A DNA stretch of 64,000 nucleotides. Origin: Branchiostoma floridae. Lineage: Eukaryota > Chordata > Leptocardii > Amphioxiformes > Branchiostomatidae. The position numbers and the translations under genes were made by a program. Below the pieces are notes generated by a model, which saw nothing but the letters and a program-made list of their open reading frames with translations, made no database searches and was not told the origin of the DNA. Position 1 is the first letter of the stretch, and every line of letters starts with the position of its first letter. This document shows, piece after piece, positions 21,667 to 60,700 of this stretch. Location of the stretch: contig NC_049993.1 in assembly GCF_000003815.2 (NCBI RefSeq), positions 3,730,518-3,794,517 of the forward strand. The letters run 5' to 3'.

Positions 21667-21713
<47 letters not shown>

Positions 21714-22032
21714 ACAGTGGAGATCACGATCCAGGAGAATCGCCGATCCTCCTAGGAGAGATCGCGATCGGAGTTTCTCCTAGGAGAACTACGATAGATA
21801 TAGGAAACAGATCCCGATCGCAATNNNNNNNNNNNNNNNNNNNNNNNNNNNNNNNNNNNNNNNNNNNNNNNNNNNNNNNNNNNNNNNNNNNNNNNNNNNN
21901 NNNNNNNNNNNNNNNNNNNNNNNNACATCTTAGCATCGTTTGAGTTTGGATCGGAGTGTCTCCTAGGAGAAACTCCGATCGCGATCTCTCCTAGGAGGAT
22001 CGGCGATTCTCCTGGATCGTGATCTCCACTGT

Positions 22033-22080
<48 letters not shown>
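21667..22080. mobile_element. Hairpin element, 77 bp perfect arms inside TA microsatellites, gapped centre
   Basis: 21711-21787 and 21959-22035 are exact inverted copies starting GTCACAGTGGAGATCACG, each bordered outward by a (TA)n run (21667-21710 and 22036-22080). CTCCTAGGAG motifs recur inside. The centre holds 100 N, a conventional size for an unsized gap. Confidence 0.75.
21825..21924. other. Assembly gap, 100 N
   Basis: A run of exactly 100 N inside the hairpin element. The real length is unknown. Confidence 0.99.
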
Positions 22081-33700: not shown

Positions 33701-36700
33701 TCCGCATCAATGATCCAATATTGTTGTACATATCTGTGTATCTGACTGTTATAGTTAAAAATGTGAAGTAGATAGCTAGGTGCTAATCCATGTAAGCATT
33801 TATACACCAAAATGCATAAGCGTTGAGTCCTCTGGTCCTGTAGATGACGTTATCCCCATCGTAGTTCGTGATGCAGTTTTTCGACGCATATCAGTTGATC
33901 ATCCTCTCTAGCTAAAAAATAATATGCTAAAAAAGGGTTTTGGCCAGTATCGATATAGATATATAGATAGATATATAGATAGATAAAATATTTTTCTACT
34001 GAATTAATTGTGTTTGTCATTATGCAAATAAGGCTCTCATTTGCATAAACTTTATAACTTGATCATCTCCAACAAACAGACATGCGCAATATATGTTAAG
34101 AAAGGAGACTTTTGCCGCCTTTTCTGGTAATGTATGCAAATTAGGACCTAACTTGCATAGTTAATGTTCAACGATGTTCACTTGTACATAACTTCCAACT
34201 GTTCACTTGTACATAACTTCCAAATACTACAAGTAAGAAGTTCCCGTCATTTATCAAAATGAAATTATAGCATCTTCTCATTAATTATGCAACTTAGGTA
34301 TTTATCTATCAATATTCTTCTCTTTCTCAGTTACAAAGGTCACATGTTGTAATGGTCCTTTAATTGAGCTGAGCATGTTTACACAATTTCCCAATTTATT
34401 ATGCAAATTAGCTTCCACTGTGCATAATTTTTCATAATTAATATGTAATTATATTAAGCAGCACCTATCCTATCCACATACCAAAAACCACAACAATCTG
34501 TCAACCTCTTCTTTAGGTATTCCCATTAACCCTATTCATACCGGGCTTTTTTGGTCATCCCTGGACCGGGGGGGGGGGCTTTTGAGGCCCTCCACTTCTA
34601 AGTCTTATAACTCTAAAACGACAAGCCTTAGAGCCACCAAATTTTTAGGACATGATGTCGACATAACATCTAACAAGTATGTGACGTTTGACATTACGTG
34701 GATGTAATATGACGTTATTATGACGTCATCATTTTGATTATGTTGGCCAAACCCATGAAAAAGGGTATTCTCAGAAAACTTCAAGTTATGCTACAAAAAT
34801 GTAACAAGTGCAGATAACAGAATAATAATGTTTGTTACGCCTTGCGTTGCCAATAGTAATATCAATGACGTCAATATGACGTCATAAGAAGACGTCATTC
34901 ACATCTAAGATACGAGTTGGGCTCCGCCATATTATATCCACCACATTGAATTTTTAAAAATACTTTTTTTGCAACAAATAATCACAAAGGGCAATGGAAA
35001 TAGACTAACTTCATTCATTTAGATGGTTTTTGATGAAAAAATAGCAGGTAGTTAAGAATTTTAAGGGATAATTAGCTTGTTATTCTTGATCTGGCCATTC
35101 GGGCCACCATCTTGGATTTTGGACTGATGACGTCATCAAATTAGCATAATTTATGCATATATAATTATGAAAGATATGCTAAATAATATAAGATTTTATT
35201 TATGTAACAAAAACACAGTAATATGGCAAACCAATGTGAAAAATAGATTGTTAGAACCAAAAATTGTGATTTTTTGCAAAACTGCCTGTCAACAACTGGT
35301 TGCCATGGCAACAAGAAAAAATTGACAATTTGTCAAACTTCGTAAAATTGTTGCCAACAATATTTTAGGAAAACTTATCAAATTTGGTGGCCCTAGCGTA
35401 AGCCGTTCTGGCGTTATGGGGCATCGAAGTTCAACCCCCCCCCCGGTCTGAATAGGGTTAAAAGTCTGGCACCTAAGTCTAAACCTGTCCTGCAGTTCCA
35501 AAATAAGCCGGTAGGCGGCAAAAACCTATACCACTTATTTACAGCATCAAGAGCTGTCTACCACTTAAGATTCATAGCCGCAGCCTGTCCAGAACTCGAG
35601 ATATCAAACATGGAAGTTCTGCTGCAGTACCGTAGCAGGTCACTAGGAGGCCAAAAATCTTATCGTTTCCAGGTCTCAACAAGACCTACCCACATACCGA
35701 ATATCAATACAATCCATCCAGGTGTTCTTGAGCTATGGTGGTCTTCTACAACCGGCACACACATACAAACGCTACCCAAAATATAACTTTCTTGGCGAAG
35801 GTAACTATCACATTGCTATCTCACAACCCCCACAGGTTTTAAGCTCAAACAATGCTTGTTTCACACATCAGTTTGTATTTCTAAAACAAAGATATTAAGG
35901 GTGAAGAAGGCCACCAAACTTTCCAAACTCCTGGACACATAAACCACGAACGAACCCGGAAGTGATTTCCACGAATCACAGGTCATTTTCCGAAAAACAT
36001 ATTTCAACAATCTTTTACCCCCTATTTCAAGTGTTTACATTTCCATGACCACCATACTACATACTCCAATTCGGGTACGTCTGAAGTCCTAGGCTTTTCT
36101 CAATTTTGCACGGCTATCAATCAAAAATCGCCTTGCGCGAATACGGAAAATACTGCTGTGCACACGTATATCGGTATGTGTCCTGCGACTGGAAAGCTTA
36201 CCCGTGGAGGTAATGGTACAGTCCGGCATAATGCAACTACGCACGCGCGGACTTTTGACATTCCTGACATTCCTGTACAGTTTTTGGAATACTTCGCAAA
36301 CGGTTGCACACTATACTATTAAGCTCGCCCATCAGGCGTCGCTAAAAAGGCTTCGATAACAGTACATTCGAAGACAGCAAGGCATAAAAGTTTTCAGTTC
36401 AGTTTCGGGGCAGGCGAGCTCGTCGTGGGACGAACACATTGTCACGTTCATCACAATATTTGTAGATGATAATCACACGTGCTCACGGCACAAGACGAGC
36501 ATGATTCAACAGCAATCTTGAAGTTCTGTTGGTGACCTACAACTCGTGTAAAAGTGTAAAGAACCATTGCATGATAGCCCGGATCTACGGCTGAATTGGC
36601 CAAATTGAACGTACGCCGCCATTTTCCCGCCGTTTTTAATGGTACGCTAGCAGTAAAGTTTTACGTCATAGCGGTTGTGACGGATTAGAATTAAATGAAA

Positions 36701-39700
36701 ATTCTTGATATTTTACGTCCGTTTTTGCATGACTTTCTGTATGCTCATACAGGTTTTTGTTTTTTTCAATTACTAACAGGAAAGGGGGAACAACAGAGGA
36801 TGAATAAACTAAAGGTACAAAGCGGCAGTTAATTGTGCCGTGTTTTTCCTGGCGGTATTATTGAACCCCCTCCCAACCACGCGACCATTCCCCGTATTAG
36901 TCCGCGGTGTGTTACTATTACGATCATATTAAGTTTTTAGCACGACAAAAGAGACAAAAAGGAAGATGCAGAAAACATGTGGCAAAGGTAAGCTTTACCA
37001 GCAACATGTAACTGGAGAAAATGAGGCGTTGAGCATTTGTCAAATTAGTATCGCTTGCGAACTCGCAGTAAACTTGGCGGTATTATGATAATAGTTGATA
37101 TCCCCATCGTAGTTTGTGCTGCAGTTCTTCGACGCTAGCTCTGGGATCCCGCCTCAGTATGGTCCTGGCAGCCCTGTTCTCAAGAATCTGTAGACGTTGT
37201 TTGAGTTTTAAGCTGCTGTTGTCCCAGATGACATCGCAGTATTCTAGTATTGGTCAAACGATGGCCTTATACAGCATTTTAGCAACATTTGTACAAAGAT
37301 AAAGTTGTAAACGTCTAAGCAAACCAATACGCTGAGATGCTTTACTGTGCGTCATCTCTACATGGTTACTATAGGTACTAACTCCTTGTATAAATCACAT
37401 GTTCGAATATTGTCAACTCCCAGTGTTCGACCCGTGTGAAAGCCAGCCCTGCCGTAACGGTGGCCAGTGCGTGGACGACAACAATGGCGGATACATGTGC
37501 CAATGTGCAGGGCGATGGACCGGTACCAACTGCGATGAGGGTAGGTACTGTAGCTATCGATACTGATCTCGAGGGTTCCATTGGAATCTTTGCATAAAGC
37601 GCTAGTCGTAACGTCCGGCAATGTTACAACAATGTCCTCCAAAATCTGTAAAATCTATATCATATTGAAATGTCCGCATCAATGATCTAATCTTGTACAT
37701 ATCTGTGTATTTGACTGTTATAGTTAAAAATGTGAAGTAGATAGCTAGGTGCTAATCCATGTAAGCATTTATACACCAAAATGCATAAGCGTTGAGTCCA
37801 CTGGTCTTGTAGATAACATCTATTGGCATAACACCGCCAGTAATACTTATACCGCCAAATGACATACATGATAAATTTTCGGTGATCCACTAGTGCAGCA
37901 ACAGTAATTTCAGAGGCTTGCACACTTCAGACATCCACGTGTTTCACACATTTTCATAAAGGCTTCGATAACTGTTCATTCGAAGACAACAAGGCATAAA
38001 TGTTTTCAGTTCAGTTTCGGGGCAGGCGAGCTCGTCGTGGGACGAACACATTGTCACGTTCATCACAATATTTGTAGATGATAATCACACGTGCTCACGG
38101 CACAAGACGAGCATGCTTCAACAGCAATCTTGAAGTTCTGTTGGTGACCTACAACTCGTGTGAAAGTGTAAAGAACCATTGCATGATAGCCCGGATCTAC
38201 GGCTGAATTGGTCAAATTGAACGTACGCCGCCATTTTCCCGCCGTTTTTAATGGTATGCTAGCAGTAAAGTTTTACGTCATAGCGGTTGTGACGGATTAG
38301 AATTAAATGAAAATTCTTGATATTTAACGTCCGTTTTCTCATGACTTTCTGTATGCTCATACAGGTTTTTGTTTTGTGCAATTATTGACAGGAAAGGGGG
38401 AACAACAGAGGATGAATAAACTAAAGGTACAAAGCGGCAGTTAATTGTGCCGTGTTTTTCCTGGCGGTATCATTGAACCCCCTCCCAACCACGCGACCAT
38501 TCCCCGTGTTAGTCCGCGGTGTGTTACTATTACGATCATATTACGTTTTTAGCACGACAAGAGAGACAAAAAGGAAGATGCAGAAAACATGTGGCAAAGA
38601 TAAGCTTTACCAGCAACATGTAACTGGAGAAAATGAGGCGTTAATCATTTGTCAAATTAGTATTGCTTGCGAACTCGCAGTAAACTTGGCGGTATTATGA
38701 TAATAGTTGATATCCCCATCGTAGTTTGTGCTGCAGTTCTTCCACGCTAGCTCTGGGATCCCGCCTCAGTATGGTCCTGGCAGCCCTGTTCTCAAGAATC
38801 TGTAGACGTTGTTTGAGTTTTAAGCTGCTGTTGTCCCAGATGACATCGCAGTATTCTAGTATTGGTCACACGATGGTCTTATACAGCATTTTAGCAACAT
38901 TTGTACAAAGATAAGGTAGTAAACGTGTAAGCAAATCAATACGCTGAGATGCTTTACTGTACGTCATATCTACATGGTTACTATAGGTACTAACTACTTG
39001 TATAAATCACATGTTCGAATATTGTCAACTCACAGTTTTCGACCCGTGTGAAAGCCAGCCTTGCCGTAACGGTGGCCGGTGCGTGGACGACAACAATGGC
39101 GGATACAAGTGCCAATGTGCAGGGCGATGGACCGGTACCAACTGCCATGAGGGTAGGTACTTTAGCTATTGTTACTGATCCCGCGCGCCATATTGGAATA
39201 TATGTGCTTATCTTATAACGTCCGGCAATGTTACAACAATGTCCTCCAAAAGCTTTGAAATCTATATCATATTGAAATGTCCGCATAAATGATCTAATCT
39301 TTTTGTACATATCCGCCATATTGGGTTACCTAGCGGGGACATACTCCTCAAAAGGCCTCGTTTCTCTGCAACTTCTCGCACGATCTGTCGAGTTAACGTT
39401 TGCAATCTCGCGAGATGTTAGGGCTGTTGACTTCCGGGTTCGAATCCATTTAAGGCCCCAGTAATGGATGATACACCTGTATCCTCACAAAATTCATGTT
39501 AAAAGAGTTTCGGTGTGGAGTTGACTTCTGAAATTGGACGTACTCCCTAAGGTTCAGTGTTTGAGGAGAGCCAGGCGGAACAGTACCCATTAATATTTGT
39601 TTATTGTTTATTGTTCATTACCACCTTTAGTTGTTAACATATCAGACATGCAACAACTAGTCTTCCAGGAGTAATACACATAATAAAGACACACAGTTTG

Positions 39701-42700
39701 CAACATAAACACATACAACATGTCAATTAAAAAAAATCATGAAAAAAACTCATGTGCCATATCCAAAATCATCAAGCCTCTCATGTGTCTAGCCAAGTCT
39801 CGCGTATGTTTCACCAGCTGCCGTCTGAAAATCTTGCATGTGTTCACATTTTGCAGCTCATGTGATAACTTGTTCCATTCTGATGATGCTCTATATGTGA
39901 AGGCTTTCTTAAGGCTGTTTCTCTTTGGTTTCTCTGTTCTTAAGTTTCTCCGTGTGGCCTGTCTCGTATGATAGCTGTGTTGTGAAGATACCAAATGTAG
40001 TCTACTGTACAGTGATGATGGCTCATTTGAATGAAGTACTTTATGAAATGTACACATGCTGCTTACATACAGTCTTTCGCTTACGGTCAACCATGATAAG
40101 ACATTGTGCATATGCTTGATCGGGGTGCGGTTGCCTGCTTTATTCTGCATCACATGTAGCGCGGTGATGTTCTTTTGTGTAGTAGAAGCCCAAAACAGAA
40201 TCCAAAATAATAAGGGAAAATCCATTTTGTTCCCTTTTTTCGGCTTCAAAACACAAAAATTAAGCCTTTCTTTTTATCAAAATGCAGCCTTCATGACTTG
40301 GTATTTGCATTTTTAAGAAACTTTCTTTAAAAAATCACAACTAGATGAGTATATGTACTCAAACAAATCAATAATAATCCAGCCTAACCGAGGATATATA
40401 ATGAATTAGAGTTTTGTCCAGCAGCTTGGAGGATATATACTCCGGCTGGAGGACGATATATACTCTGATAGAGTATAAATACTCTGCGTAAAGGAGGATG
40501 GATACTCTGTCCGAAAGAGTATTTATACTCTGCCTGTAGGAGTATTTATACTCTGCCTGATAGGGTAGAGTATTTATACTCTGAAAAATGAAGATGAATA
40601 CTCTGCATAAAGGAGGACGGACCATGTGCCTGAAAGAGTATTTATACTCTGCCTGATAGAGGATGAATACTCTACATGAAGGAGAATGGTCCCTCTGCCT
40701 GAAGGAGTATTTATACTCTGCCTGATAGGGAAGAGTATTTATACTCTGATAGAGGATGAATACTCTGCACAAAGGAGGATGGACCCTGTGCCTAAAAAGA
40801 GTATTTATACTCTTCCTGATAGAGGAACATGAAGGAGAATGGTCCCTCTGCCTGAAGGAGTATTTATACTCAGTCTCTGCTTGAAAGAGTATTTATACGT
40901 TGCCTTAAAATCTCAGTAGTAGTCAGGGTGTTTTTTTTTCTGAAAGTCTATTATTACACAATCACCAGTGATTTGATTATGATGTTCAATTTTGCGCGAC
41001 ACCTTTCACAAGGTAGGCGTATTCCTTTCAAACATATACATACATGACACGGTGTATAGAAAGCAGCTAATGTATATTTTACTCATCTAGGTAATATGAA
41101 GGGATGATAATTTTCGTAGATGCTATCAGTAAATACATGATCAATTGATAAGCTATCAAAAGCGGCTGGAAGAGGAGAAATGGGCCAAATAGACGTATTA
41201 GTATCATGTCAGAGGAGTTAGTCCGCTTAATGAGCAAACTGTACTCCTACAACGGACAAACCCCTCTGGTATGTTATCTGTCTATTTGAACGATTTCTTT
41301 TCTTTCCAACCGCTCCAGGAATAAAGGCCGATCAAAGGAAACGTAAACAAGTTCATGTTAGGCTAACACATTAAGCTAATCTTTACAGTTAAAGCTGTGT
41401 TCTGCATACAAGGTACGCTCTCAATTCTAGCTTCATCTTGCAGCTGCTTCTTCCCTCAGCACGAGCGAAACTAGACCATCCTCGCTCACTACCTCCCTTC
41501 GTCCATTCAATCCGTTGTTATTCTCTGAGCAGCAACCTGTAGCCAATGAATGAATGAAAAATGAAATCTCACCCCACATATTAAGCCTACGGTTTGAGAG
41601 AAAATATTGCTTTATCTTCAGTGCTATAGTAGAGAAAGACACTTGAATGCATGCATTGCATGTTTTATAGTATCACATAAATACATACAACAGTGTACAA
41701 GAAGAGCTCAAATTCATGTAGTGACTGCTGAGGACAACAGTCACAAATGCATATTCGACAAACCGATATAAGAAATGGAGCAGGTTGGAGACATGTTCCT
41801 TAGAAACATTCGATATAAACAGTCTAAAGGAACAGCCATTTATCTTAATCTGCTCAGAAAGAAAAATAGGAATTTGTTACATAAATGTAGGTGTCCAAAA
41901 TCAAAGTGATTTCAATTTTTCTCTGCCCCCTATCAATCAAGTCTATCCGTCATTTTATTAACTGTGGTCTAGGTGGACATATGTTACCTATTTCTTCCAT
42001 TAGACAGCTTTCCAGACGTCCGTCGCTGACTCGAAGCGATCCGAAGATGTCTCCTAGGGGACCTGAATAAGTTTGTGGTGAGAACGCGGATACAGTAAGT
42101 CTATAACATCCGTGGCGCTCCTAACAATGTTTGTTGATAGCAAGTCACCAACTTTGTTAACCCCTATGGCACCATTACACCATGCGATTTGAAACAAACC
42201 TACAATTGCTTAACAAACGAGCAGGAAACGGACATTTCAAATGTAATTCAGTGTTGACCGTTGACCCTAACGAGTGACCACTAGTAGGAATAATGATTTA
42301 GCAGGACACCTGAAGAAAATTCTATGTCATCAGCTCACTATAGCTCACTTGACACTTTAAGCTGAATAAGTCTTTGAAATCAGTCTTTTTTTAAACTGTA
42401 GGGATTACCCTTACGCCTAAATGATTGAGAAATAAATAAGAAATTCTGAAAAAAAGCTACATAAGGGACCCTAATTGAAGTAATCTGTAACATATGACAC
42501 AACACAAAGGTAATGACAACAATCTCATGAAAAAGACAAAAGCTCAACACGCAAATAAAACAAATGTGCCACTGTTTTGGCTCTACACACTACCCCCTAA
42601 TCTAGTGAACCAACATTCCCAAACAATTGGAAAACTTCAAAACATTACAAGGCACATTAGCCGAGAATAGGCGACAAAGAAAATAGATTTTGATTCCAAA

Positions 42701-45700
42701 ATTGAAACCCATTCAACGTAACACTGCGATAGATCTGCCTTTTAATTAAAACTAGAGATAAATATGTGTAGTCACACATGCACACAGGGTCGCTTTTAAG
42801 TGTAATTTGTGCCAGGTGAAATTGTAGCTAGGCAATGTTAAAAAGCAGGTGTGAACATATATATACAGCCCTTGTAGTTAGAGGTCAAAGTGTGGGTGGG
42901 ACAAGGGGGTGAGGCAGTTGGAAATGGTCTGTCCCAACCTGAACGCTCCATCCTTCTGCAGGAAGAAATGGACTGTCCCCACCTGAATAGACCCCCCAGA
43001 AATAAGAAATGGACTAGCCCAACCTGAATAACCCCTACTTCAGCAAGTTCTAAGTACTTGAGACACACGTACACACGAGGTACATTGTACGAGGGACGCT
43101 CGACCAAACAGTGCACGTAATACAGCTTGCCGTCCGTTTATTTTTATTACCTACATAAGTTATGGAGATGATCGTCAAAATTTGCATTATCAACATCTTG
43201 CTACATTCCTCTTTACTTAAGGAACATACTGTATGAATATCGAAAGTGTAACAGCTTTTTGTAATTTTGAAATTGATATGCAAATTATTACCTCATTTGC
43301 ATAAATTTAACATCTCATGGTAATCTTGATTACAATTATATTGGACGAAAAGATTAAACACCTATCATTTAACAGTAATGTTTAATTAGTAGTTTTCATT
43401 GGAAGTTATGATAATGAGCTCCCTCAGAGATACACTATATAGGAATTATAGCAATTATCTATTCAAATAAAATAACAACATATATTCCGTCAAATCAGAA
43501 AAATAACTCATATTCGTCCTTACGTATTGATAGAGAGGAGCTCCGGTGTAATTTTTCCGACCACTACTATATCTACGTGACTCAACCTCTGCTTGGAGAG
43601 TAACCCAGGCTAACAACACCACCGCTGGACTCCTAGCTCCACATGCCGGTAGCTCATTTGGCCCAGCGGGGTGCGAACTGCTAAGTACCACTGAAGTGAC
43701 ACACGACTTCCAAACAGATCTGTCTCGTCATTAGCCTCCATAGCGGGCCTTCTGGGTCTTTTTGTCTTTGGGCTCATAAAACACTTCTGCTGCATATTTG
43801 TATCTTTGTTATTCTCTATCTTATTGCAATAAAAGCAGGCTTTGAATCCAGTATATCATCACAAACATTTATTCTATCGGACACAAAGACTATCGATCTA
43901 GTAAGTTACAGTACTTACACACATTTAGCCCCTTAGCCTTTAGTTAGTGAACCACCCCTGGTTGGAACCCTTCCTATCATCAACGGAACTCCCCCTTGAC
44001 TGTTGCGTATGGTATGGTATGAAGCCTGGTATGAAGGTAACGCCTCCTTTCATGATGTCACGAGCTACGTTACTTCTGCCCCGGTGACCGATCACTGGTA
44101 TTCTCTTTGGCACTTCAAAGTCATGCAAAGCTAACTGGTCACCAGAAAAAACCCGGTCTACTGCATACCAAACTCATATAGAGTGAGACCAACATCATGT
44201 AAATGTCCGCTGTGCTCCGACATGAAAGCGGACATGGCCAAATACTGAACTAGTGGAATTGTGGGAAAGCTTGGCTTGTTTACACCAGGCGATAATCTTT
44301 CAATTTCTTGGCAGGCGAAACGGAGAGGGTAATCCACGTGACCCGATGCTGGTACCACAGCAAAGTCCCTCGAGCTCCGTACATGCTCGCGCTCAACTTG
44401 ATTGCACCACCAGTCCAAATTTCAAGTAACTTGCTATGTGTTTGAATCTTGATATATATATATCCGAACGACGAGGCTTTAAAAGAAAACTGTATCCTTG
44501 AGAGTCGCCCGGAACAACTTATAATTGTGCTGGGACTATCGCATCCTTCCAAACAGCTAAGCTTTGACTGTATCTGTTACCAAAACACTTCCAGATGCCC
44601 GCGCACATAATAACTGTCATATGAAGTCAGAAATTCAGGTCAAGATTCGACAAGTAAATGGAATCACAACCGCACTCTACAACTAGAAAGTGTTAGAAAA
44701 CCCACAAAGGCAAACAGTGACAATCAACTGATGAGAGACCGTCCAAACTTGGAACTCAGAAGTCCTACCTGCCTTGTAACGATCTACACTACCCAACTCG
44801 ACCCCCCCCCCCTTCTCCAGCTTAACAACATATCGTCTCCCCAAAGAACATGTCCATAAGTTTTATATACATCAAGAGGATCACTGTATAATTTCAGAAA
44901 GGAGTTCTACATACCAAAGAACATTGTGGAGCTGTCCATTCAGAAGCAGGCGTGTATCGCTGGAAATGTCTTTTCCCATGAAGATAAGGCGCCATCGCGC
45001 CTGCTGACCGTTGATCAAATGTTCTCCATATTTGTTACAGCAGGGTTTGTCCGCTCAAGGTACGCCCTCGTCTCTCCGTTGCCAGGATGCAATTTTGGCA
45101 CGAAGATACTGCAGTAGGCCACGAAATAAGTTGAACTCGAATCAACATAACTCGTTTAACTGTGAGAAAGGATATGGACCCCATGGCTTGACCTGTAGCT
45201 TATCTGCACTGTTGATCACTGTTTCACCGTATCAGTTCGGCCCCCTAGCCTGTTGATGACCCCGGCCCGCCAGATGTTGGCCCGCCCGCCACCGTGTCAC
45301 ACTGAAAGGTGACCCAGGCTTGTCTTACAAGACCCTATTCTTCAAGCAGATGTTGGGTTAGTGAGGAGGAAAAGCGCTGGTCGGGATTTCGGAGACAGCG
45401 GCTACTGCTATACTCCGACCCGATCCCCGATTGGATATTATATGTGAAGCGTTTCTGCAGGTTTCTGTTTGCCCGGTATTTGTTTTTCTGACAGGTGAAT
45501 GTTCAATTCTACAGTTAAACGATCTTAAACCTACCCGAATAAACTCTACTCTACGCTACACATATAAGATCATATAAAGTACTAGTAAATAGGAGAAGGT
45601 GAGGACGGAAACAGATTGAAGCGTCGGAGGAAAACATAGGCATTACCTTATTGTTACAGCACGGTTGATATCTATTATCAAATGTCATGGTCAAGCCCTG

Positions 45701-48700
45701 TACGTGTATTTTTACTTGTTGACATGTGTACACTTTACACATTTCCAAACGTACACATCTGAACTGTACCCATTACTAAATAGCATCTGTTGCAGTTAAT
45801 CTGTTGCGGTTAGACGACCTTAGACGTTAGAACTCACGTTAAAAAATTACCGTGAATCTCAGAGCCAGCTTTATGAGAAGCTCCGGCTGGTTTTCTCATA
45901 CTAAAATTTATAAGGGCAGGTTTGGCTCTCAATTTTTTGCTGGTTTTGTCATACTAAAATTTATGAGGGGTGGTTTGGTTGTTGCAGATTTTTAACTTGG
46001 TCGGTCCTCCTGTTAATTATTCAACCTGTACATTGCGGTTAGACGCTATATGTATGCCTACCAGCATAACTCTTTAACCAGAGGTTTGACTCTGAGTGGG
46101 GACTAATGCTAGGAGGCATAAGGCCGCAGCAAGTAAATTTTTATTGATGACATCCTCTGCAGACTGGAAAAAAACTCAAGATGGGAAATGTTCAAGATCG
46201 ACACGATAAACGTTGTAACAAGAATTAAAGTGACAAAATATGGCATTAAAACCAACAAGGCATTCGTCCCTCTAAGTCGTTCACTATAGTTTAGTCAAAG
46301 TGACACTAGTGTCATGCGGTAGACAAGTATTAATAACCATGTTGGCAACTACACTCGTTACTTTTATAAATGTTGGTGCCACTGTTACAACTATAATCCA
46401 TCATGTTTCACATCTACAACTACAGTCAAGGCTCTAGTGTCGATTCTAGTGCCAATTCTACATACAATTTATAGGTTACAACACAACTTATTTGCCCATT
46501 TTGGTCTGTCCGCGGTCTGACCATCCCTAAANNNNNNNNNNNNNNNNNNNNNNNNNNNNNNNNNNNNNNNNNNNNNNNNNNNNNNNNNNNNNNNNNNNNN
46601 NNNNNNNNNNNNNNNNNNNNNNNNNNNNNNNNNNNNNNNNNNNNNNNNNNNNNNNNNNNNNNNNNNNNNNNNNNNNNNNNNNNNNNNNNNNNNNNNNNNN
46701 NNNNNNNNNNNNNNNNNNNNNNNNNNNNNNNNNNNNNNNNNNNNNNNNNNNNNNNNNNNNNNNNNNNNNNNNNNNNNNNNNNNNNNNNNNNNNNNNNNNN
46801 NNNNNNNNNNNNNNNNNNNNNNNNNNNNNNNNNNNNNNNNNNNNNNNNNNNNNNNNNNNNNNNNNNNNNNNNNNNNNNNNNNNNNNNNNNNNNNNNNNNN
46901 NNNNNNNNNNNNNNNNNNNNNNNNNNNNNNNNNNNNNNNNNNNNNNNNNNNNNNNNNNNNNNNNNNNNNNNNNNNNNNNNNNNNNNNNNNNNNNNNNNNN
47001 NNNNNNNNNNNNNNNNNNNNNNNNNNNNNNNNNNNNNNNNNNNNNNNNNNNNNTTCATTTTTATTTTGTATTTTTTTGTTTATATGTAATTTTTCAACGT
47101 GAGTTCTAACATCTAAGGTCGTTTAACTGCAACAGATGCTATTTAGTAATGGGTACAGTTCAGATGTGTACGTTTGGAAATGTGTAAAGTGTACACATGT
47201 CAACAAGTAAAAATACACGTACAGGGCTTGACCATGACATTTGATAATAGATATCAACCGTGCTGTAACAATAAGGTAATGCCTATGTTTTCCTCCGACG
47301 CTTCAATCTGTTTCCGTCCTCACCTTCTCCTATTTACTAGTACTTTATATGTCTTATATGTGTAGCGTAGAGTAGAGTTTATTCGGGTAGGCTTAACTGT
47401 AGAATTGAACATTCACCTGTCGGAAAAACAAACACCGGGCAAACAGAAACCTGCAGAAACGCTTCACACATAATATCCAATCGGGGATCGGGTCGGAGTA
47501 TAGCAGTAGCCGCTGTCTCCGAAATCCCGACCAGCGCTTTTCCTCCTCACTAACCCAACATCTGCTTGAAGAATAGGGTCTTGTAAGACAAGCCTGGGTC
47601 ACCTTTCAGTGTGACACGGCGGCGGGCGGGCCAACATCTGGCGGGCCGGGGTCATCAACAGGCTAGGGGGCTAGGGGGCCGAACTGGTACGGTGAAACAG
47701 TGATCAACAGTGCAGATAAGCTACAGGTCAAGCCATGGGGTCCATATCCTTTCTCACAGATAAAAGAGTTATGTTGATTCGAGTTCAACTTATTTCGTGG
47801 CCTACTGCAGTATCTTCGTGCCAAAATTGCATCCTGGCAACGGAGAGACGAGGGCGTACCTTGAGCGGACAAACCCTGCTGTAACAAATATGGAGAACAT
47901 TTGATCAACGGTCAGCAGGCGCGATGGCGCCTTATCTTCATGGGAAAAGACATTTCCAGCGATACACGCCTGCTTCTGAATGGACAGCTCCACAATGTTC
48001 TTTGGTATGTAGAACTCCTTTCTGAAATTATACAGTGATCCTCTTGATGTATATAAAACTTATGGACATGTTCTTTGGGGAGACGATATGTTGTTAAGCT
48101 GGAGAAGGGGGGGGGGGGTCGAGTTGGGTAGTGTAGATCGTTACAAGGCAGGTAGGACTTCTGAGTTCCAAGTTTGGACGGTCTCTCATCAGTTGATTGT
48201 CACTGTTTGCCTTTGTGGGTTTTCTAACACTTTCTAGTTGTAGAGTGCGGTTGTGATTCCATTTACTTGTCGAATCTTGACCTGAATTTCTGACTTCATA
48301 TGACAGTTATTATGTGCGCGGGCATCTGGAAGTGTTTTGGTAACAGATACAGTCAAAGCTTAGCTGTTTGGAAGGATGCGATAGTCCCAGCACAATTATA
48401 AGTTGTTCCGGGCGACTCTCAAGGATACAGTTTTCTTTTAAAGCCTCGTCGTTCGGATATATATATATCAAGATTCAAACACATAGCAAGTTACTTGAAA
48501 TTTGGACTGGTGGTGCAATCAAGTTGAGCGCGAGCATGTACGGAGCTCGAGGGACTTTGCTGTGGTACCAGCATCGGGTCACGTGGATTACCCTCTCCGT
48601 TTCGCCTGCCAAGAAATTGAAAGATTATCGCCTGGTGTAAACAAGCCAAGCTTTCCCACAATTCCACTAGTTCAGTATTTGGCCATGTCCGCTTTCATGT

Positions 48701-51700
48701 CGGAGCACAGCGGACATTTACATGATGTTGGTCTCACTCTATATGAGTTTGGTATGCAGTAGACCGGTTTTTTTCTGGTGACCAGTTAGCTTTGCATGAC
48801 TTTGAAGTGCCAAAGAGAATACCAGTGATCGGTCACCGGGGCAGAAGTAACGTAGCTCGTGACATCATGAAAGGAGGCGTTACCTTCATACCAGGCTTCA
48901 TACCATACCATACGCAACAGTCAAGGGGGAGTTCCGTTGATGATAGGAAGGGTTCCAACCAGGGGTGGTTCACTAACTAAAGGCTAAGGGGCTAAATGTG
49001 TGTAAGTACTGTAACTTACTAGATCGATAGTCTTTGTGTCCGATAGAATAAATGTTTGTGATGATATACTGGATTCAAAGCCTGCTTTTATTGCAATAAG
49101 ATAGAGAATAACAAAGATACAAATATGCAGCAGAAGTGTTTTATGAGCCCAAAGACAAAAAGACCCAGAAGGCCCGCTATGGAGGCTAATGACGAGACAG
49201 ATCTGTTTGGAAGTCGTGTGTCACTTCAGTGGTACTTAGCAGTTCGCACCCCGCTGGGCCAAATGAGCTACCGGCATGTGGAGCTAGGAGTCCAGCGGTG
49301 GTGTTGTTAGCCTGGGTTACTCTCCAAGCAGAGGTTGAGTCACGTAGATATAGTAGTGGTCGGAAAAATTACACCGGAGCTCCTCTCTATCAATACGTAA
49401 GGACGAATATGAGTTATTTTTCTGATTTGACGGAATATATGTTGTTATTTTATTTGAATAGATAATTGCTATAATTCCTATATAGTGTATCTCTGAGGGA
49501 GCTCATTATCATAACTTCCAATGAAAACTACTAATTAAACATTACTGTTAAATGATAGGTGTTTAATCTTTTCGTCCAATATAATTGTTATCAAGATTAC
49601 CATGAGATGTTAAATTTATGCAAATGAGGTAATAATTTGCATATCAATTTCAAAATTACAAAAAGCTGTTACACTTTCGATATTCATACAGTATGTTCCT
49701 TAAGTAAAGAGGAATGTAGCAAGATGTTGATAATGCAAATTTTGACGATCATCTCCATAACTTATGTAGGTAATAAAAATAAACGGACGGCAAGCTGTAT
49801 TACGTGCACTGTTTGGTCGAGCGTCCCTCGTACAATGTACCTCGTGTGTACGTGTGTCTCAAGTACTTAGAACTTGCTGAAGTAGGGGTTATTCAGGTTG
49901 GGCTAGTCCATTTCTTATTTCTGGGGGGTCTATTCAGGTGGGGACAGTCCATTTCTTCCTGCAGAAGGATGGAGCGTTCAGGTTGGGACAGACCATTTCC
50001 AACTGCCTCACCCCCTTGTCCCACCCACACTTTGACCTCTAACTACAAGGGCTGTATATATATGTTCACACCTGCTTTTTAACATTGCCTAGCTACAATT
50101 TCACCTGGCACAAATTACACTTAAAAGCGACCCTGTGTGCATATGTGACTACACATATTTATCTCTAGTTTTAATTAAAAGGCAGATCTATCGCAGTGTT
50201 ACGTTGAATGGGTTTCAATTTTGGAATCAAAATCTATTTTCTTTGTCGCCTATTCTCGGCTAATGTGCCTTGTAATGTTTTGAAGTTTTCCAATTGTTTG
50301 GGAATGTTGGTTCACTAGATTAGGGGGTAGTGTGTAGAGCCAAAACAGTGGCACATTTGTTTTATTTGCGTGTTGAGCTTTTGTCTTTTTCATGAGATTG
50401 TTGTCATTACCTTTGTGTTGTGTCATATGTTACAGATTACTTCAATTAGGGTCCCTTATGTAGCTTTTTTTCAGAATTTCTTATTTATTTCTCAATCATT
50501 TAGGCGTAAGGGTAATCCCTACAGTTTAAAAAAAGACTGATTTCAAAGACTTATTCAGCTTAAAGTGTCAAGTGAGCTATAGTGAGCTGATGACATAGAA
50601 TTTTCTTCAGGTGTCCTGCTAAATCATTATTCCTACTAGTGGTCACTCGTTAGGGTCAACGGTCAACACTGAATTACATTTGAAATGTCCGTTTCCTGCT
50701 CGTTTGTTAAGCAATTGTAGGTTTGTTTCAAATCGCATGGTGTAATGGTGCCATAGGGGTTAACAAAGTTGGTGACTTGCTATCAACAAACATTGTTAGG
50801 AGCGCCACGGATGTTATAGACTTACTGTATCCGCGTTCTCACCACAAACTTATTCAGGTCCCCTAGGAGACATCTTCGGATCGCTTCGAGTCAGCGACGG
50901 ACGTCTGGAAAGCTGTCTAATGGAAGAAATAGGTAACATATGTCCACCTAGACCACTGTTAATAAAATGACGGATAGACTTGATTGATAGGGGGCAGAGA
51001 AAAATTGAAATCACTTTGATTTTGGACACCTACATTTATGTAACAAATTCCTATTTTTCTTTCTGAGCAGATTAAGATAAATGGCTGTTCCTTTAGACTG
51101 TTTATATCGAATGTTTCTAAGGAACATGTCTCCAACCTGCTCCATTTCTTATATCGGTTTGTCGAATATGCATTTGTGATTGTTGTCCTCAGCAGTCACT
51201 ACATGAATTTGAGCTCTTCTTGTACACTGTTGTATGTATTTATGTGATACTATAAAACATGCAATGCATGCATTCAAGTGTCTTTCTCTACTATAGCACT
51301 GAAGATAAAGCAATATTTTCTCTCAAACCGTAGGCTTAATATGTGGGGTGAGATTTCATTTTTCATTCATTCATTGGCTACAGGTTGCTGCTCAGAGAAT
51401 AACAACGGATTGAATGGACGAAGGGAGGTAGTGAGCGAGGATGGTCTAGTTTCGCTCGTGCTGAGGGAAGAAGCAGCTGCAAGATGAAGCTAGAATTGAG
51501 AGCGTACCTTGTATGCAGAACACAGCTTTAACTGTAAAGATTAGCTTAATGTGTTAGCCTAACATGAACTTGTTTACGTTTCCTTTGATCGGCCTTTATT
51601 CCTGGAGCGGTTGGAAAGAAAAGAAATCGTTCAAATAGACAGATAACATACCAGAGGGGTTTGTCCGTTGTAGGAGTACAGTTTGCTCATTAAGCGGACT

Positions 51701-54700
51701 AACTCCTCTGACATGATACTAATACGTCTATTTGGCCCATTTCTCCTCTTCCAGCCGCTTTTGATAGCTTATCAATTGATCATGTATTTACTGATAGCAT
51801 CTACGAAAATTATCATCCCTTCATATTACCTAGATGAGTAAAATATACATTAGCTGCTTTCTATACGTCATGTATATGTCATGTATGTATATGTTTGAAA
51901 GGAATACGCCTACCTTGTGAAAGGTGTCGCGCAAAATTGAACATCATAATCAAATCACTGGTGATTGTGTAATAATAGACTTTCAGAAAAAAAAACACCC
52001 TGACTACTACTGAGATTTTAAGGCAACGTATAAATACTCTTTCAAGCAGAAACTGAGTATAAATACTCCTTCAGGCAGAGGGACCATTCTCCTTCATGTT
52101 CCTCTATCAGGAAGAGTATAAATACTCTTTTTAGGCACAGGGTCCATCCTCCTTTGTGCAGAGTATTCATCCTCTATCAGAGTATAAATACTCTTCCCTA
52201 TCAGGCAGAGTATAAATACTCCTTCAGGCAGAGGGACCATTCTCCTTCATGTAGAGTATTCATCCTCTATCAGGCAGAGTATAAATACTCTTTCAGGCAC
52301 ATGGTCCGTCCTCCTTTATGCAGAGTATTCATCTTCATCAGAGTATAAATACTCTACCCTATCAGGCAGAGTATAAATACTCCTTCAGGCAGAGTATAAA
52401 TACTCTTTCGGACAGAGTATCCATCCTCCTTTATGCAGAGTATTTATACTCTATCAGAGTATATATCGTCCTCCAGCCGGAGTATATATCCTCCAAGCTG
52501 CTGGACAAAACTCTAATTCATTATATATCCTCGGTTAGGCTGGATTATTATTGATTTGTTTGAGTATATATCCTCATCTAGTTGTGATTTTTTTAAGAAA
52601 GTTTCTTAAAAATGCAAATACCAAGTCATGAAGGCTGCATTTTGATAAAAAGAAAGGCTTAATTTTTGTGTTTTGAAGCCGAAAAAAGGGAACAAAATGG
52701 ATTTTCCCTTATTATTTTGGATTCTGTTCCAAACTGCTGCACAGTAGTCAAGATGTTGCAAGGTAAGTGTTTCTGTCAACATTTTCAACAACGACTGATC
52801 CAAGTATGCCGCACTCCTTCTGATGGTGCCCAGGGACCTAGCCATTTTCTTTATGGTCTCTTCTACATGGAGGTCCCACGTGAGACACTCATCCAAGGTG
52901 CTCCCCAGTACCTTCATTGTTGTTACTTGTCAGCAAACAAGGTGAGTTTCAGTTTCTTTGACATATTGGGTCTACTCCCAAGCAACATACACTTTGTCTT
53001 ATTTGCATTCAAGAAGAGTCTGTCTAAACTCACCCAGTTACATATATAATCTAAGTCTTCCTGTAAATTGACCGTTACTGTCTCCACTGATGGCGAGCAC
53101 GTGTATGCTGATGTGTCGTCTGCGTACATTCCGGGGATCGTTTCCCTCACAGCGAATGGTAGGTCGTTTTAAATATTGTGAACAACAAAGGACCAAGGCA
53201 ACTACCTTGGGGTACGCCACAATTAACCTCCCTAAACGGCGAGTTCGTGCCGTTGAAGTGTACGCACTGTTCTCTTCCTGCTAGGTAACTGTCCATCCAA
53301 TGTACTGAGGTGTCTGAGAAACCGTAGCACTCCAGTTTTTGTAACAGAAAGCTGTGATCCACCAAGTCAAAGGCAGCGGAAGAATCGAAGAAGATAACCC
53401 CGACGATGTTACCCTGGTCGATCTTACGATACCAGTCATCGACTAGCTGCAAGAGTGCAGTGCACGTCGAGTGATGTTTTCTGTAGGCGTGTTGGTAGGG
53501 TGACATCAGGTCATTCACTTTGAAATAGTCCGATATTTGAGAACTCACAACTTTCTCCATCACTTTACACTTGGCTCTTTTCCATGCCGTCGGATATTCA
53601 GAAGTGATGAGCGATAAGTTTATTATGTAGCACAGTGGTCTGGCAATTTGGTCGGCAGCCAACCTTAACAGCTTGTTGTCGACATTGTCAAGTCCAGTAG
53701 CTTTCCCATCAGATAAGGACAGAATGTGTTTGTAGATCTGTTCCCAATGTGTAAGTTGGAAGTCGAAACTACAGTCTTTTCCAGCCATGACCTTATCCCT
53801 TATCAGCTGGAGAAGGTCCCCGTTTGTTTGCGAGTCCAACCCTTTTCTCAGAGAGTTTACCTACTGCGTAAAGAATGAGTTGAAGTAGTCCGCTACGTCA
53901 CCTGCCTTAGTGAGGATCTCTCCGTCCCGCTCTACAGTAAAGGCTGACCGACGAAGCCCTCTACCCATCATTCCATTCAGTGTTCTCCACATTTCCTTTG
54001 CTTTGGGTTATTTCTGGACTCAGCTATCTTAGATTTGAAGTATGTGGCTTTCTTTTTCCGATTTAGTTTGACAGCTGCATTCCTTAGTTTCTTGTATATG
54101 CACATGTCTGAAACGAGGCCTGACGCAAGAGCTTCCTTCTTGGCGTCATCTCTGAGCCTCATTACTTCTCGAAGTTCATCGTCCACCCAACCTGCAGGGT
54201 TCGACCTCACAGTCCGTCTCTTAGCAGGGACATGTTGATCGGCTACGTTGCAAAACAATGTTGTAAACAGGTGCAGTGCTTCATTTACATCTGACTCATC
54301 GTATACAATGTGCCAAGGTACCATGCTCATGTCTTGCTGGAAGTCGTCCTGGTTGAACTTACTGTAGGTTCTTTTATAGACAACATGTGGCTGAGTCTTT
54401 GGAACCTTAGTCTTCCTTGTCAAGTAGATGATGTTGTGATACGTAAAACCCAGAGGCGTTGACTTTGTTGTTGTGCACCTTTCCTTGCAGTTTGTAAAAG
54501 CCAGATCGATACACGTAGCTGTTCTGTGGCCGTTCTTGTTAACTGTAAACCTGGTAGGGTCTGACACAGTTTGAGAAAGGTTGCACCTTACTGCAGTCTG
54601 TGCTAGTCGTTCCTTCAGTGGACACTCTGAGTTGGACCAATCAACACTAAAGTCCCCTAGTACGAAGACTTCTTTGTTCGTGTCTGTTGCATTGTCAATT

Positions 54701-57700
54701 GCATCCAAAATGTTATTGAAGTACTGAATTGAAGATCCAGGTGGTCTGTAAACACAACCGATCAGCATTGGTGCAGACCGCGGTATATTAACCTCTAGCC
54801 AGAGCATTTCCACATTATCATTATTCAGTTCATTTCTCTCTTTCCAAGAAAGCCCGTCACGTATCAGAACGGCCACACCTCCTCCGTGCAGATTCCGATC
54901 CTTCCTGACCATTGACCACCCATCCGGGCACAGTTCACTATCATTAGAGTCCAAATGCGTTTCAGTCCATGCGATTATGTGAAAGCTGTTCTGTTCTAGT
55001 AACTCTTGCAGTTCATGAGTCTTATTTCTCAAGCTACAAATGTTCAGATGGCACAAGTGAAGGCCTTTCCTGGGCAAATGTAGGTCTGTTGGTCCAGGGT
55101 TAGTGTCTATATCCCCACAAAGAAGTATCAATACATAAAGGCATGCTATGCATGCAGTATTCAGACTGACAAACGAAGGCATCTTACTTGCAATTCCTCA
55201 AAGTTTGTAAGCAGACAATAGCAGCAACGAAACTTTACTCTCTCTTAGCTAGATTCACATTCATGCACATTACCTAATACATAATAACTTAAAAACTATT
55301 TGCTCAATTGTTGCGTATTACAAGAGATATTTCTAAAAGCTTATCATGGGAATATTGCCAAAAATTCTAATAGTTAAAAAATACAGTTGCTAAAAGTTTA
55401 GATCTTCGTAACAAGCATAATGAGCCGGAGAGAGGCACTGTCCGATGTACCAGCCAGCAATAAAGTTAAGTGGCAAAAGAATCAGGATAAATGTGTCGTA
55501 CCTACCTAACCAGTAGCACACAAAGATAAGAAGTAAGTGCAGGTGTTTTGAAATAGATTGTTGGCTCGGTCAGTACCTCTCAGCTGAAGGTAGAGATATC
55601 AGAGCTCAGCATGGATGGCGCCCTCCCCACGAAATATGAAGGTGGCTATAAAATCTTACATCAGTGTTGGTCTTTCCTTGTGTGAATGGAGAAAATCTTC
55701 ACACTCATCTTGAAAAGAGAATAATATTCATTTCATCAACGTGACGAGAATAATCTTAAGGCGATGATAAAATTGTTTCTTACTATGTCAGATGTTTCGA
55801 AATTACCAGAACATCCACATTGTTGACAAATACATATTCTTGTACCTAGTTGCTGGCACAGAAGAGTGTAGCTCTGATCCATGTCAAAATGGCGCTACTT
55901 GTATCGACAATGACAATGGATACACCTGTGATTGTGCTGCTGGCTATAAAGGAGTTAACTGTGAAACAGGTAGGTTTTGCTACCATTCGATGTACATTGG
56001 TGGTAAATGGTATGAATTGCTTGTCTCATGGTGACAATGGTTAACATAATTAAACACAATCTATACACATTAAAAGATGAAAATTTAATGGGTAAATTTT
56101 ACATGTCCTCTTTGTTCTCTATGTTCAGAATTGCCATGCTCCGACCTGTACCCTGACATTAGTCCTGCCGAAAACTTCGGCAGGTACCAGAACTATTGCT
56201 TCTGGTCCTCCTCCAAGAAAAACCGGCGGCTCAACTACAGGGCAGCCCGGCAAAAGTGCGAGTCTTATGGCGGGACGTTGGCTATGATCAAAGATGCCGG
56301 TGTGCAGACATTCCTTAAAGACCATCTGAAGACAACAATCCAGCGTATCAAAGTTAACAGGTAAGTAATAGGATAGTTTAATTCTTAATTATTCCTGGTA
56401 GAGTGTCTTCCTTCCAAGATGGGGGTGATGATCAACTGTTTGCTAATTACCTGCTTGAAAAAGCAGGTCTCGATTTTGGTAGGGATCTTTGTGATTCCGG
56501 ACCGATATCTTTAGAACCTCCGGATGGATTGCGATCACGTTTGCTATGGGGATAGATATTGTGAGCCATTGTGCTATAGCGTGCATTAGAAGTTTGCTAC
56601 AGTTTTGTGGTTCGTTTTAAAAAAAACATTTACATCCCCTTTTGGGCAGGAGTAAAGTGGTTCTATAGTTGACCTGAAAACTGAATCCTGGTAGTCAGTT
56701 TGTTAAGATGGCCAATTGGCTGGAGGCAGCCCACCCGCACTACCTGGGGCAATTGGTATTTATTTGCAGTGTCCTGCAGTAATTATGGTTCCTTCTACGA
56801 CTTCTAGCATCTCCTTCAAAAGTGTTACATTCATTATGTTGTATGCAATGTACATCTACAAATTAAAGTGAATGTTACCTTGTTACCTCTATGAAAATTG
56901 GAGGCACTGATTTGTTTTTTGATGTTTGGTGGTAAATATCAGTTTGTTGCAGTTTTGTGGTTGTTAAAAAATATATTAGAGTAACTGTGACCATCCCTGT
57001 CACCTCTGTATGGAATGAACCATTATATACACATGTACACATTAGGGATATGTGCCAGGTGCAGGTGCGGTCTAGCACTTAACCTTGCAGACTTTGCGCC
57101 AGTGGAGGAAACCGCAAACGTTGACCAGAAAGTAGAGCTATTTTACTCCATTGTTTGTCCACTCCTTGACAAGACAGTGCCACTGACGAAGGAAGAAGTC
57201 ACGTCCCAAGATAAACCGTGGATAACGGTGCACACCCCAGTTCTTCCGCGACCGGGGTCCGTGGTAGTGCGCGACCAAAAAGTGACGAAAGGCTTCCGAG
57301 GGTCCATGTTTGAGTTGACATTTCTCATTATTTCCTGCGAAATGACATTAACCGGTTACATGGCTGAAAAGCGTAGGAAATGGTGTGTTTTTGGTGCAAA
57401 TTGTGTTTTGGTCCGCGCCTTACTTCCGGTATATTCCTACGCCTGAATGTAAACAGGCCCGTGACCTAGATTGACCTCTGAAGCGCTGTGTTAAGCCAAG
57501 TAATAATGCCGCGCGCCGTGGATGATTAAAAAAACGATAGTACTAGAATTTTCTTTATAATTGGCTGGATTACTCGTTAGGTTTTCCTCTTTCTGACAGT
57601 ATCAGTCGTGTTTGCCGGAAAAATCTTCTTCATGTTTTTCTTTCAATGCCAAAATGCCCGATTTTTTGCATTACTTTACTATGAAAATAATGTTTTGTCC

Positions 57701-60700
57701 CTCTAATTTTTTAAAATTAGAGAAGTTGAAGGATCGAAACTCAGTTGGTCTTGTAGCTAAAGGAATACCCTTTCGCCATATATACAGTTAGTTTGCTTCA
57801 GGACAATTCCCTGGTAGAGTTGGTCGCTAGACTTGAGGGTGTGCCGCCTCCAATTGAAACCCCAAATAAACTGGTGTGTGCCCCCATAACTCCACGCATA
57901 AAGCGTTTGATAGCTGCGAGACAGAAAACCTACATGTCGGGTAACACTGGTGTTGCGCCCCGAACCGTGCCTTGCCCCAAACCGTGCCTTAGCACGGTTT
58001 CGGGCAAAGCAAGGTTCGGGGCACAAACTGTGCCTCAGATTGTGCACTGAGGTCTGACACAACGAACTGAATCATTAAGGCTTGGAGACTTGATCAACCT
58101 GCAGCTGGACGTTGTCATGTTTATATGTGGTATATTTTGTAATATATTAAAAATGGGATGCACTTATGACTATAGACGTGCTAGTTACGGAAAAGCCTGG
58201 GCCCAGGAGCGGGGCTGGCAAGCCTGAAAGACTACCTTTTCTGTGCCCCAAGGCCATGCATGGGGTTTGGCCTGCAGCAGAAGTTTGGGTCAATGACAAT
58301 CCCATCTAGCAAGATCTCGCAAGATCAAGCCTTATTTGGAAACATGGGCGTGAACAATTAGTTATCACTACCCCGTCAGTCATAGTGATTGACAGCGCTT
58401 CTTGGCACAGACCGGGGCAGTCGAGCTGTGCCCCGTTCCGTGCCTGAATGGGCACGGAATGGGGCAGGCACGGATTGGGGCATGACAGCTACCGAAGAGA
58501 AAGACATGTGCGAGTCCCTGAGCGAACACTTCTCCTCAGTCTGGGCCAACGTACAGCGTACAGCGTACCATTCCTGATGTTGCAGATGTAGCTAGCCAGC
58601 TCTCGGACGGGTTTTTACCTGAACTAAGCAAAGGCCAGCTAAAGCTTCAGTTAAAACGGGTCAATCCACGTAAGGCAACCGGGAGGGATCAATTACCGCC
58701 CCGATCCTGACGGACATATACAACAGGTGTTTTCAGAAGGGACCATTTCCAAACAAGTGGAAAGAGGAAATCGTCGTGCCTGTACCAAAAACACCTAAAC
58801 CGAAAGGTCCCGAACAGTTTCGTCGTATCTCATTGACTAGTTGCCTTGGCAAAGAGTTAGAGGTCTTTGTCCGTGAGCTACTATTGCGAGATACCGATGA
58901 CAAAATCATTAACTCACAGCACGGTTTCAGGCGTGGCAGGTCTACCGTCTCAGCCCTCATACAGACGACACAAGCATGGCATGACGCTCTAAATAGCAAT
59001 CCCAAAATGGACGTCCATGTGGCATTCATAGACTTCTCACGTGAGTCACGTCACATTTTTTTCTATTTGCTTTTGAACAGACGAGGACGATGTGGCACTG
59101 CACTCAAGTTTTGTAACTTATATTAACAATGCCACATACACGGTACAGACAGAAGGAAAGTCGTGTAAAGCGCCTTTCCCAAGGGCACAACGCCAGGGGC
59201 ACGGTGGGAATCGAACTCAGAACCCATAGATTCCGAGCCGAACGCTCTACCAGTTACGCCACGCCCGACGCCACGCCGATCGACAACATTGACCATGGGA
59301 AGCTCTTGCGCAGCCTTGCAAGGTTGGGCATAAGACAAAACCTCTGGGCATGCATCTCTAGCTACCTGAGTGACCGCAACCAGCGCGTGAAATGGGGAGG
59401 ATGTGTCTCGGAGTCGCGGCCCGTTCTAGCTAGCACACCCCAGGGAGGAATATTGTCGCCGACGTTATTCGTCATAGCTATGAACTGTCTGGACGAAAAC
59501 ATCCACCCCAGTGTCACCCCAGTGAATTATGCGGATGACCTGACGAACTCTGAGTGTCTAATGGGATCTCTCCCTGGTATGCTACAAACGTTAATGTCAT
59601 GACTGTAGAGTGATGGGCTGCTTCATACTGCATGGATGCAAACGCCAAGAAAACAAAAGACATGGTGATAAGCTGCCGCCGAGTCCCACTGGATCCCCCA
59701 CCGCTTATGCTTGGTGGTCAGCCCGTGGAGAGAGTCACGAAATTCAAACACCTGTGTGGGGAGGGCTTGCAAAGACCCTGTCGGATGAACTGGAAAAAAG
59801 TGTGGCAATTAAAATTATTGCCATAGCGACGGTTTCAATGTTTATAAGTTTTGCAGATCGTTGCTGTTAATGGGTTTTAATAGTCGTATCCCATTCGTCT
59901 GGCGATGGCTGTTCATAGAGCATTACTGTCAAAGGGGGTCCCTTGTGAGTGAAGGGTGAACTTATTTAAATGCTTCTCATCGATTTTACAAATCAAGACC
60001 TCATTTTACATGAATGATATCAGTTGATCATCCTCTCTAGCTAAATAACAATATGCTAAAAAAAGGGTTTAGCCAGTATCGATATAGATATATAGATAAG
60101 TAAAAATATGTTTCTACCGAATTAATTGTGTTTGTCATGGATTATGCAAATAAGGCTCTCATTTGCATAAACTATATAACTTGATAATCTCCAACAAACA
60201 TGCGCAATATATGTTAAGAAAGACTTTTGTCGCCTTTTCTGCTAATTTATGTAAATTAGGACCTAATTTGCATAGTTAATGTTCAACGATGTTCACTTGT
60301 ACATAACTTCCAAATGCTACAAGTAAGAAGTTCCCGTCATTTATCAAAATGACATTATAGCATTTTCTCATTAATTATGCAAATTAGGTATATATCTATC
60401 AATAGTCTTCTCTTTCTCAGTTACAAAAGTTGTAATGGGCCTTTAATTGAGCTGAGCATGTTTAGACAATTTCCCAATTTATTATGCAAACTAGCTTCCA
60501 CTCTGCATAATTCTTCATAATTAATATTTAATTATATTAAGCATCACGAAACCTATTCCTGTACAATTGGCAAACTGTTCAACAAAGGTTACTAGCCCGC
60601 ACTATGTCTCAGTTCCAAATAATCATCAAAACACAGCAACCAGCAGTTCTCTACAACCACCTAAATCCAGTCAAACAGCAACACAGCTACAACACACGTC

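Follow-up and report, generated by a model that had tools for sequence, protein, structure and literature searches.

The window analysed here, a stretch of 64,000 nucleotides at C15:3730518-3794517 in the 513-Mb genome of Branchiostoma floridae, contains a palindrome of about 12.5 kb inside a long interspersed nuclear element (LINE). We consider it likely that this insert is a non-autonomous, foldback-type DNA transposon, which belongs to a group of giant elements with terminal inverted repeats (TIRs), inserts with a 4-bp stagger and is probably mobilised by the DUF7869 protein of relatives of 29-42 kb. The evidence comes from the boundaries of the insert, 4-bp target site duplications (TSDs), palindromic copies free of unread bases (N), termini common with DUF7869-bearing elements, and the site patterns of sequence exchange between arms.

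The palindrome spans 40194-52728 of the window and is formed by two inverted arms of 5657 and 5643 nt, which are 99.54% identical over aligned gap-free columns. Its outer edges carry AACAGAATCC and its complement, each occurring once in the whole window, and CCAA in direct orientation abuts both edges. An earlier note on this DNA had described arms of about 5.65 kb with these edges and CCAA on either side, which the arm alignment and the edge positions bear out. The substitutions and indels between the arms are scattered, which indicates two separate sequences and not one sequence printed twice. The note's palindrome of 12.5 kb holds for both arms, whereas the centre is unread (522 N; Table 1) and may hide an insert; 32 nt beside the gap have no reported match to the E13 spacer. 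Tandem repeats, a feature that foldback elements carry inside their arms, are present near the end of each arm but take up only approximately 0.35 kb of it. The left arm and the remnant of the spacer showed no recognised coding capacity: for 61 open reading frames (ORFs) with 44 aa or more, Pfam matches were only weak and unrelated (best E 0.0025), and their comparison with PDB gave nothing convincing. Likewise, no structured RNA or tRNA reached its gathering score, and no phage relatives were found for 40190-47200.

A joint scan of the flank ORFs recognised RVT_1 and endonuclease families. When the flanks are joined with a single CCAA, one open stretch of 217 aa crosses the insertion site. 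For this stretch the claim that removal of the insert and one CCAA restores an unbroken reverse transcriptase (RT) frame is correct, but it does not extend to the whole LINE, which is decayed and has a further RT piece in a different frame.

A search of the genome with the terminal 291 nt as query gave 40 scored matches among 104 candidates, and 16 of the 40 could be paired by position and strand into eight elements, the window element and E4, E13, E14, E17, E19, E29 and E33 (Table 1). Exact 4-bp TSDs flank six of the eight (the window element, E13, E4, E19, E33 and E29); at least six would arise by chance with a probability of 2e-13, given the base composition of the window. The other 24 matches comprise four that stop short of the end, two that face outward on C3 and 18 single ends, and six single-end copies traced inward had no partner within approximately 5 kb, part of one of these stretches being N. 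Other copies with these ends were thus found in the genome, six of eight two-ended ones with an exact 4-bp duplication, as the earlier proposal that the palindrome is itself a transposon had predicted.

Three of these elements (E13, E14 and E17) have the window's arms without any N, elsewhere in the genome and with other flanks. Their spacers (2062, 1976 and 5614 nt, respectively, that of E17 having 3.6 kb extra) stand in the same orientation as the remnant in the window, which places the same palindrome and spacer, equally oriented, in at least four places of the genome. Over aligned columns, identity between the two arms of one element is 99.28% in E17, 99.13% in E13 and 98.21% in E14, and arms of different elements, the window included, are 97.8-99.2% identical; when gaps are counted, the values drop, for example to 95.1% within E17 and 93.7% between the left E17 arm and a window arm. 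The designation as a foldback element agrees with this structure of long inverted arms around a shorter spacer, bounded by TSDs. E4 is a 3.7-kb version with approximately 80% similarity to the outermost 1.7 kb of the window arm. E19 (19.1 kb) is inverted across most of its readable length, and its arms match those of the window only over approximately 126 nt at the end. Separately, a sequence of 3.5-3.6 kb, probably a further mobile element, was noticed in the spacer of E17 (C8 ~3169290-3172930, L021/L022) and in an arm of E19 (C17:717717-721222, L016:5718-9223). The two copies are 95-96% alike; that of E17 has approximately 12 nt of spacer at both edges, and that of E19 lies in one arm without a counterpart in the other.

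The eight arms of the four related palindromes were aligned and gap-free sites with two states were counted. Sites common only to the two arms of one element numbered 19 in the window, nine each in E14 and E17, and one in E13, and in the tree the two window arms join, as do the two E17 arms, but not those of E13 or E14. Beside the spacer, left and right alleles are distinct in all four elements at arm positions 5615 and 5620 and in three of four at 5632. Farther out they are swapped in the window at 5285-5336, where the right arm has left alleles at three sites and the left arm has right alleles; at 5429-5447 the window element has right alleles in both of its arms and E17 has left alleles in both, and E13 has left alleles in both arms at 5466 and 5472. 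Judged from these patterns of kept and swapped alleles, the palindrome predates the copies, and recombination goes on between the arms of an element, although unevenly. Arm likeness was therefore rejected as a clock of insertion, and the earlier argument from little arm divergence to recent activity fails, because sequence passes between the two arms. Copies at different places that differ by about 1-2% over aligned columns are a better, though undated, sign of recent movement.

The first 25 nt of E29 (29 kb) and E33 (33.6 kb) are exactly those of the window element. These two elements have inverted repeats of just 0.7-0.8 kb and align with each other over most of their length, mostly at 98-100% identity, with 92-96% in terminal repeats and minisatellites. 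An ORF of E29 (P0016, residues 400-616) matches six amphioxus proteins, five of which carry the Pfam domain DUF7869 (PF25273). Pieces of a DUF7869 gene were found spread along both elements by exon-by-exon tblastn, and a search with the DUF7869 family gave three stretches without internal stops in E33 and none in E29 on C19, where N covers most of the domain. Genome-wide, the same search found 70 matches at exon level, against none in 14 control genomes; among viral contigs, 20 stretches fitted a DUF7869 pattern but none was confirmed. The motifs DGMDQ, QADN and GHTHEDID do not vary among four of the amphioxus proteins, and we take these motifs to be readable as a possible DDE triad. From its association with the elements, DUF7869 is probably their transposase, possibly one of the DDE type. 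E33, E29 and E19 contain 95 ORFs with 90 aa or more; no transposase family was recognised in the 71 of them that were scanned together (the rest being chiefly minisatellite frames), nor in ten ORFs scanned singly. A 221-aa ORF with a GGNHTR motif, which we take to be ParB-like, is identical in E33 and E29 (L011:6884-7546; L013:7916-8578); it had no Pfam match and two weak, unnamed relatives.

A second type of end was found at DUF7869 loci on C4 and C16, which have the same exon pattern and whose mutual homology stops exactly at the terminus AACACGATCCAAATTTAAAGGGGAAAATCC, which agrees with that of the window element at 24 of 30 positions. The family has AACACGATCC ends. With up to two mismatches, the genome yielded 37 matches to the 30-mer compared with none for a reversed control, and 26 of them pair into 13 elements of 14-42 kb, those on C4 (35.5 kb, TSD TTCT) and C16 (42.2 kb) enclosing the DUF7869 loci. 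Eight of the 13 pairs have an exact 4-bp TSD (for the first 11 pairs, seven of them exact, the chance probability is 1e-14), which makes 14 of 21 for both end families together. DUF7869 is the sole annotated domain that was found in elements of both end types. Three of the 13 elements were probed approximately 3 kb inside their ends and all three proved to be inverted there, two of one family (99.7-100% identity over 600 and 215 nt) and a third with 77% over 351 nt, whereas the inner probes matched the other loci compared in only one 96-nt stretch. In this set of elements, long palindromes are thus common, and their arms are of at least three unrelated sequences. As a separate observation, an end that matches AACAGAATCC at 30 of 30 positions (L058, C16:3578932) lies 2.3 kb outside the 42-kb element of the second type.

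In the mechanism that we propose, the terminal ~30 bp would serve as the signal for an enzyme acting in trans, which would cut and paste the element with a 4-bp stagger and would be supplied by the DUF7869 gene of the 29-42 kb relatives. Inverted doubling of one of its ends would turn an element into a palindromic member, which would then transpose as a whole, while gene conversion and crossing over between the arms would keep them alike to a varying degree. Regarding the doubling step, E19 matches, 1.2-2.0 kb inside both of its ends, a part of E33 located 1.9-2.7 kb inside one end, in the same direction as seen from the end (66% over 875 nt, among the matches listed). This resemblance of the E19 palindrome to one end of E33 suggests an inverted doubling of the end of a coding element.

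Other explanations have to be considered. An assembly artefact, in which one internal side of a short-TIR element was assembled twice around the central gap, would fit the 522 N at the centre and the 32 nt to the right of the gap that are unmatched in the E13 spacer, but we regard it as very improbable: the N-free E13, E14 and E17 show the same palindrome, the arms are of unequal length and diverge at many sites, and the left and right alleles at 5615 and 5620 are common to four elements. On the three N-free copies misassembly was rejected, as the earlier note had argued on other grounds. As little credence is given to an origin at the locus itself, in which a single arm was inserted and foldback or template-switch repair then duplicated it in inverted orientation, so that nothing moved as a palindrome. 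Foldback priming at breaks has been proposed as a route to inverted duplications (PMC10622511). However, such an origin is largely refuted by the presence of one palindrome with its spacer, equally oriented, at no fewer than four places, and the window element and E13 have exact TSDs at the outer edges of both arms. It is furthermore conceivable, although in our view unlikely, that a foldback TIR transposon is moved by the transposase of a described superfamily, DUF7869 being a passenger or a known transposase under another name. The coding relatives hold further ORFs, the catalytic role of DUF7869 is a prediction, and Repbase names many superfamilies (PMC4455052). Against this stand the scans of 71 of the 95 longer ORFs of E33, E29 and E19 and of ten single ORFs, which brought no transposase family, and the presence of DUF7869 as the only annotated domain found in both end types.

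The interpretation as a giant TIR transposon served by DUF7869 has difficulties of its own. Seven of the 21 pairs are without an exact TSD, namely E14, E17, and the elements on C16 (CTAG/CTAC), C10 (15.7 kb), C5, C7 (23.9 kb, CTTG/TTTG) and C333, the right flank of the last opening with N, yet differing at readable positions too. The arms are homogenised unevenly, with only the single site in E13 and with E13 and E14 arms that the tree does not group by element. AlphaFold models of DUF7869 proteins, made with four and five sequences, were too poor to be used (mean predicted local distance difference test score 38.2 and 38.4), and a profile search of solved structures gave two unconvincing matches (E 0.18 and 0.85). 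Another protein could be the transposase, since E33 and E29 carry other ORFs including the presumably ParB-like one, and both elements contain runs of N and may be incomplete. Moreover, the window arm resembles E33 and E29 only over approximately 190 nt at the end and in one 64-nt stretch, and beyond this likeness no parent of the window palindrome family was found. Finally, only a minority of the DUF7869 matches in the genome was tied to a TIR here.

Among deuterostome transposons, the TU elements of sea urchin likewise have long inverted repeats, but their TSD is longer (8 bp) than the 4 bp found in amphioxus. Galileo of Drosophila, a member of the P superfamily, is similar in its long, dynamic inverted repeats, which extend variously and are more conserved at the ends, and differs in its termini, its P-type transposase and its TSD of 7-8 bp (PMC4168063); functional copies are reported as not found in D. 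willistoni in that account (PMC4168063). In the ORFs scanned here, no P-type domain was detected. Foldback elements such as Tetris are also non-autonomous, with tandem repeats in their inverted repeats, a variable middle and ends common with a sister element, and such elements are often ascribed to Mutator; the TSD of Tetris is 8-10 bp, in contrast to the 4 bp, the 5.65-kb arms with little tandem repeat and the candidate autonomous relatives in amphioxus (PMC4079207). The 8-10 bp of Mutator/MULE elements are also at variance with the junctions, which match over exactly 4 nt in eight AACACGATCC cases and, as judged by eye, do not extend further in six AACAGAATCC cases. Tm1 of root-knot nematodes is comparable in that the title of its description names it a Mutator/Foldback family (PMC3169594). 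Teratorn is likewise of giant size and has both TIRs and long inverted repeats, but it is a herpesvirus with a piggyBac-like transposase (PMC6431247). No viral family was convincing among the ORFs scanned here. For amphioxus VCBP genes, a study of 2008 describes inserts that are haplotype-specific and carry inverted repeats, some of ribonucleotide reductase fragments (PMC2632668). No paper was found on foldback elements in amphioxus or lancelets, nor one naming DUF7869, in a search outside of which the subscription literature and Repbase lay, which is no proof of absence.

Repbase assigns non-autonomous elements by the same TSD length and by positions 1-11 aligned with at most one mismatch (PMC4455052). 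By this rule, the window element belongs to the same superfamily as E33 and E29, with identical first 25 nt and 4-bp TSDs, whereas the AACACGATCC family falls outside with two mismatches in 11 (AACAGAATCCA compared with AACACGATCCA), TSD length and DUF7869 being common. The Repbase paper of 2015 lists 265 families for B. floridae (PMC4455052). A wider reading, which we hold tentatively and would not yet call probable, is that the elements with AACASRATCC ends (3.7-42 kb, 4-bp TSD) may form an undescribed superfamily with a DUF7869 transposase, whose members would repeatedly become transposing palindromes with recombining arms through inverted doubling of an end.

The coordinates are collected in Table 1. 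Further features were noticed elsewhere in the window. A GDSL-lipase-like ORF lies at 223-2484 on the minus strand, and its 13 reported relatives are all from Branchiostoma. Direct repeats at 27070-28522 and 30274-31709, 3.2 kb apart and 85-94% alike, lie over two long plus-strand ORFs and represent a tandem gene or exon duplication. Dispersed families of direct repeats, mostly 91-97% alike, surround the insertion (33122-39313 and 60290-61712), with inverted copies at 23125-23994, and at 21668-22078 a 120-nt inverted repeat with 100% complementarity and long TA runs stands around a gap of 100 N.

Table 1. Features of the palindrome and its host LINE (window positions) and paired elements with AACAGAATCC-type ends elsewhere in the genome.
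Feature	Position	Strand	Remarks
Interrupted LINE, 3' portion	39737..40189	-	
TSD CCAA, left copy	40190..40193		
Left arm, 5657 nt	40194..45850	+	First 25 nt as in coding relatives E33, E29
Subterminal tandem repeats, left arm	40479..40827	+	Periods 23, 69, 93 nt
Unpaired spacer, left part	45851..46531	+	97.7-98.7% identity to E14, E13 spacers
522 N in spacer	46532..47053		Gap-free spacers of two copies: 1976, 2062 nt
32 A/T-rich nt right of gap	47054..47085		No reported match to E13 spacer
Right arm, 5643 nt, inverted copy of left arm	47086..52728	-	
Subterminal tandem repeats, right arm	52099..52457	-	
TSD CCAA, right copy	52729..52732		
Interrupted LINE, 5' portion	52733..55197	-	406-aa ORF 53980-55197; RT piece 53150-53860
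E4	C9:23564600-23568345		TSD TACA
E13	C8:24238384-24251316		TSD GTAT
E14	C8:20912300-20926115		Edges CAAG/AGTT, no exact TSD
E17	C8:3163590-3180288		Edges TTTA/ACTA, no exact TSD
E19	C17:712994-732100		TSD ATAC
E29	C19:16388384-16417581		TSD TCAG
E33	C8:22788281-22821852		TSD CTGT

The new findings are the family of the window element, the second type of end and the candidate for the enzyme. If this is true, a set of foldback elements in a deuterostome gains candidate autonomous relatives, such as were not found for Tetris according to its description (PMC4079207), and DUF7869 gains a function that can be tested. Moreover, palindromes with 5.65-kb arms that are copied as a whole and exchange sequence between their arms would make the survival and spread of long palindromes in animal genomes directly testable.

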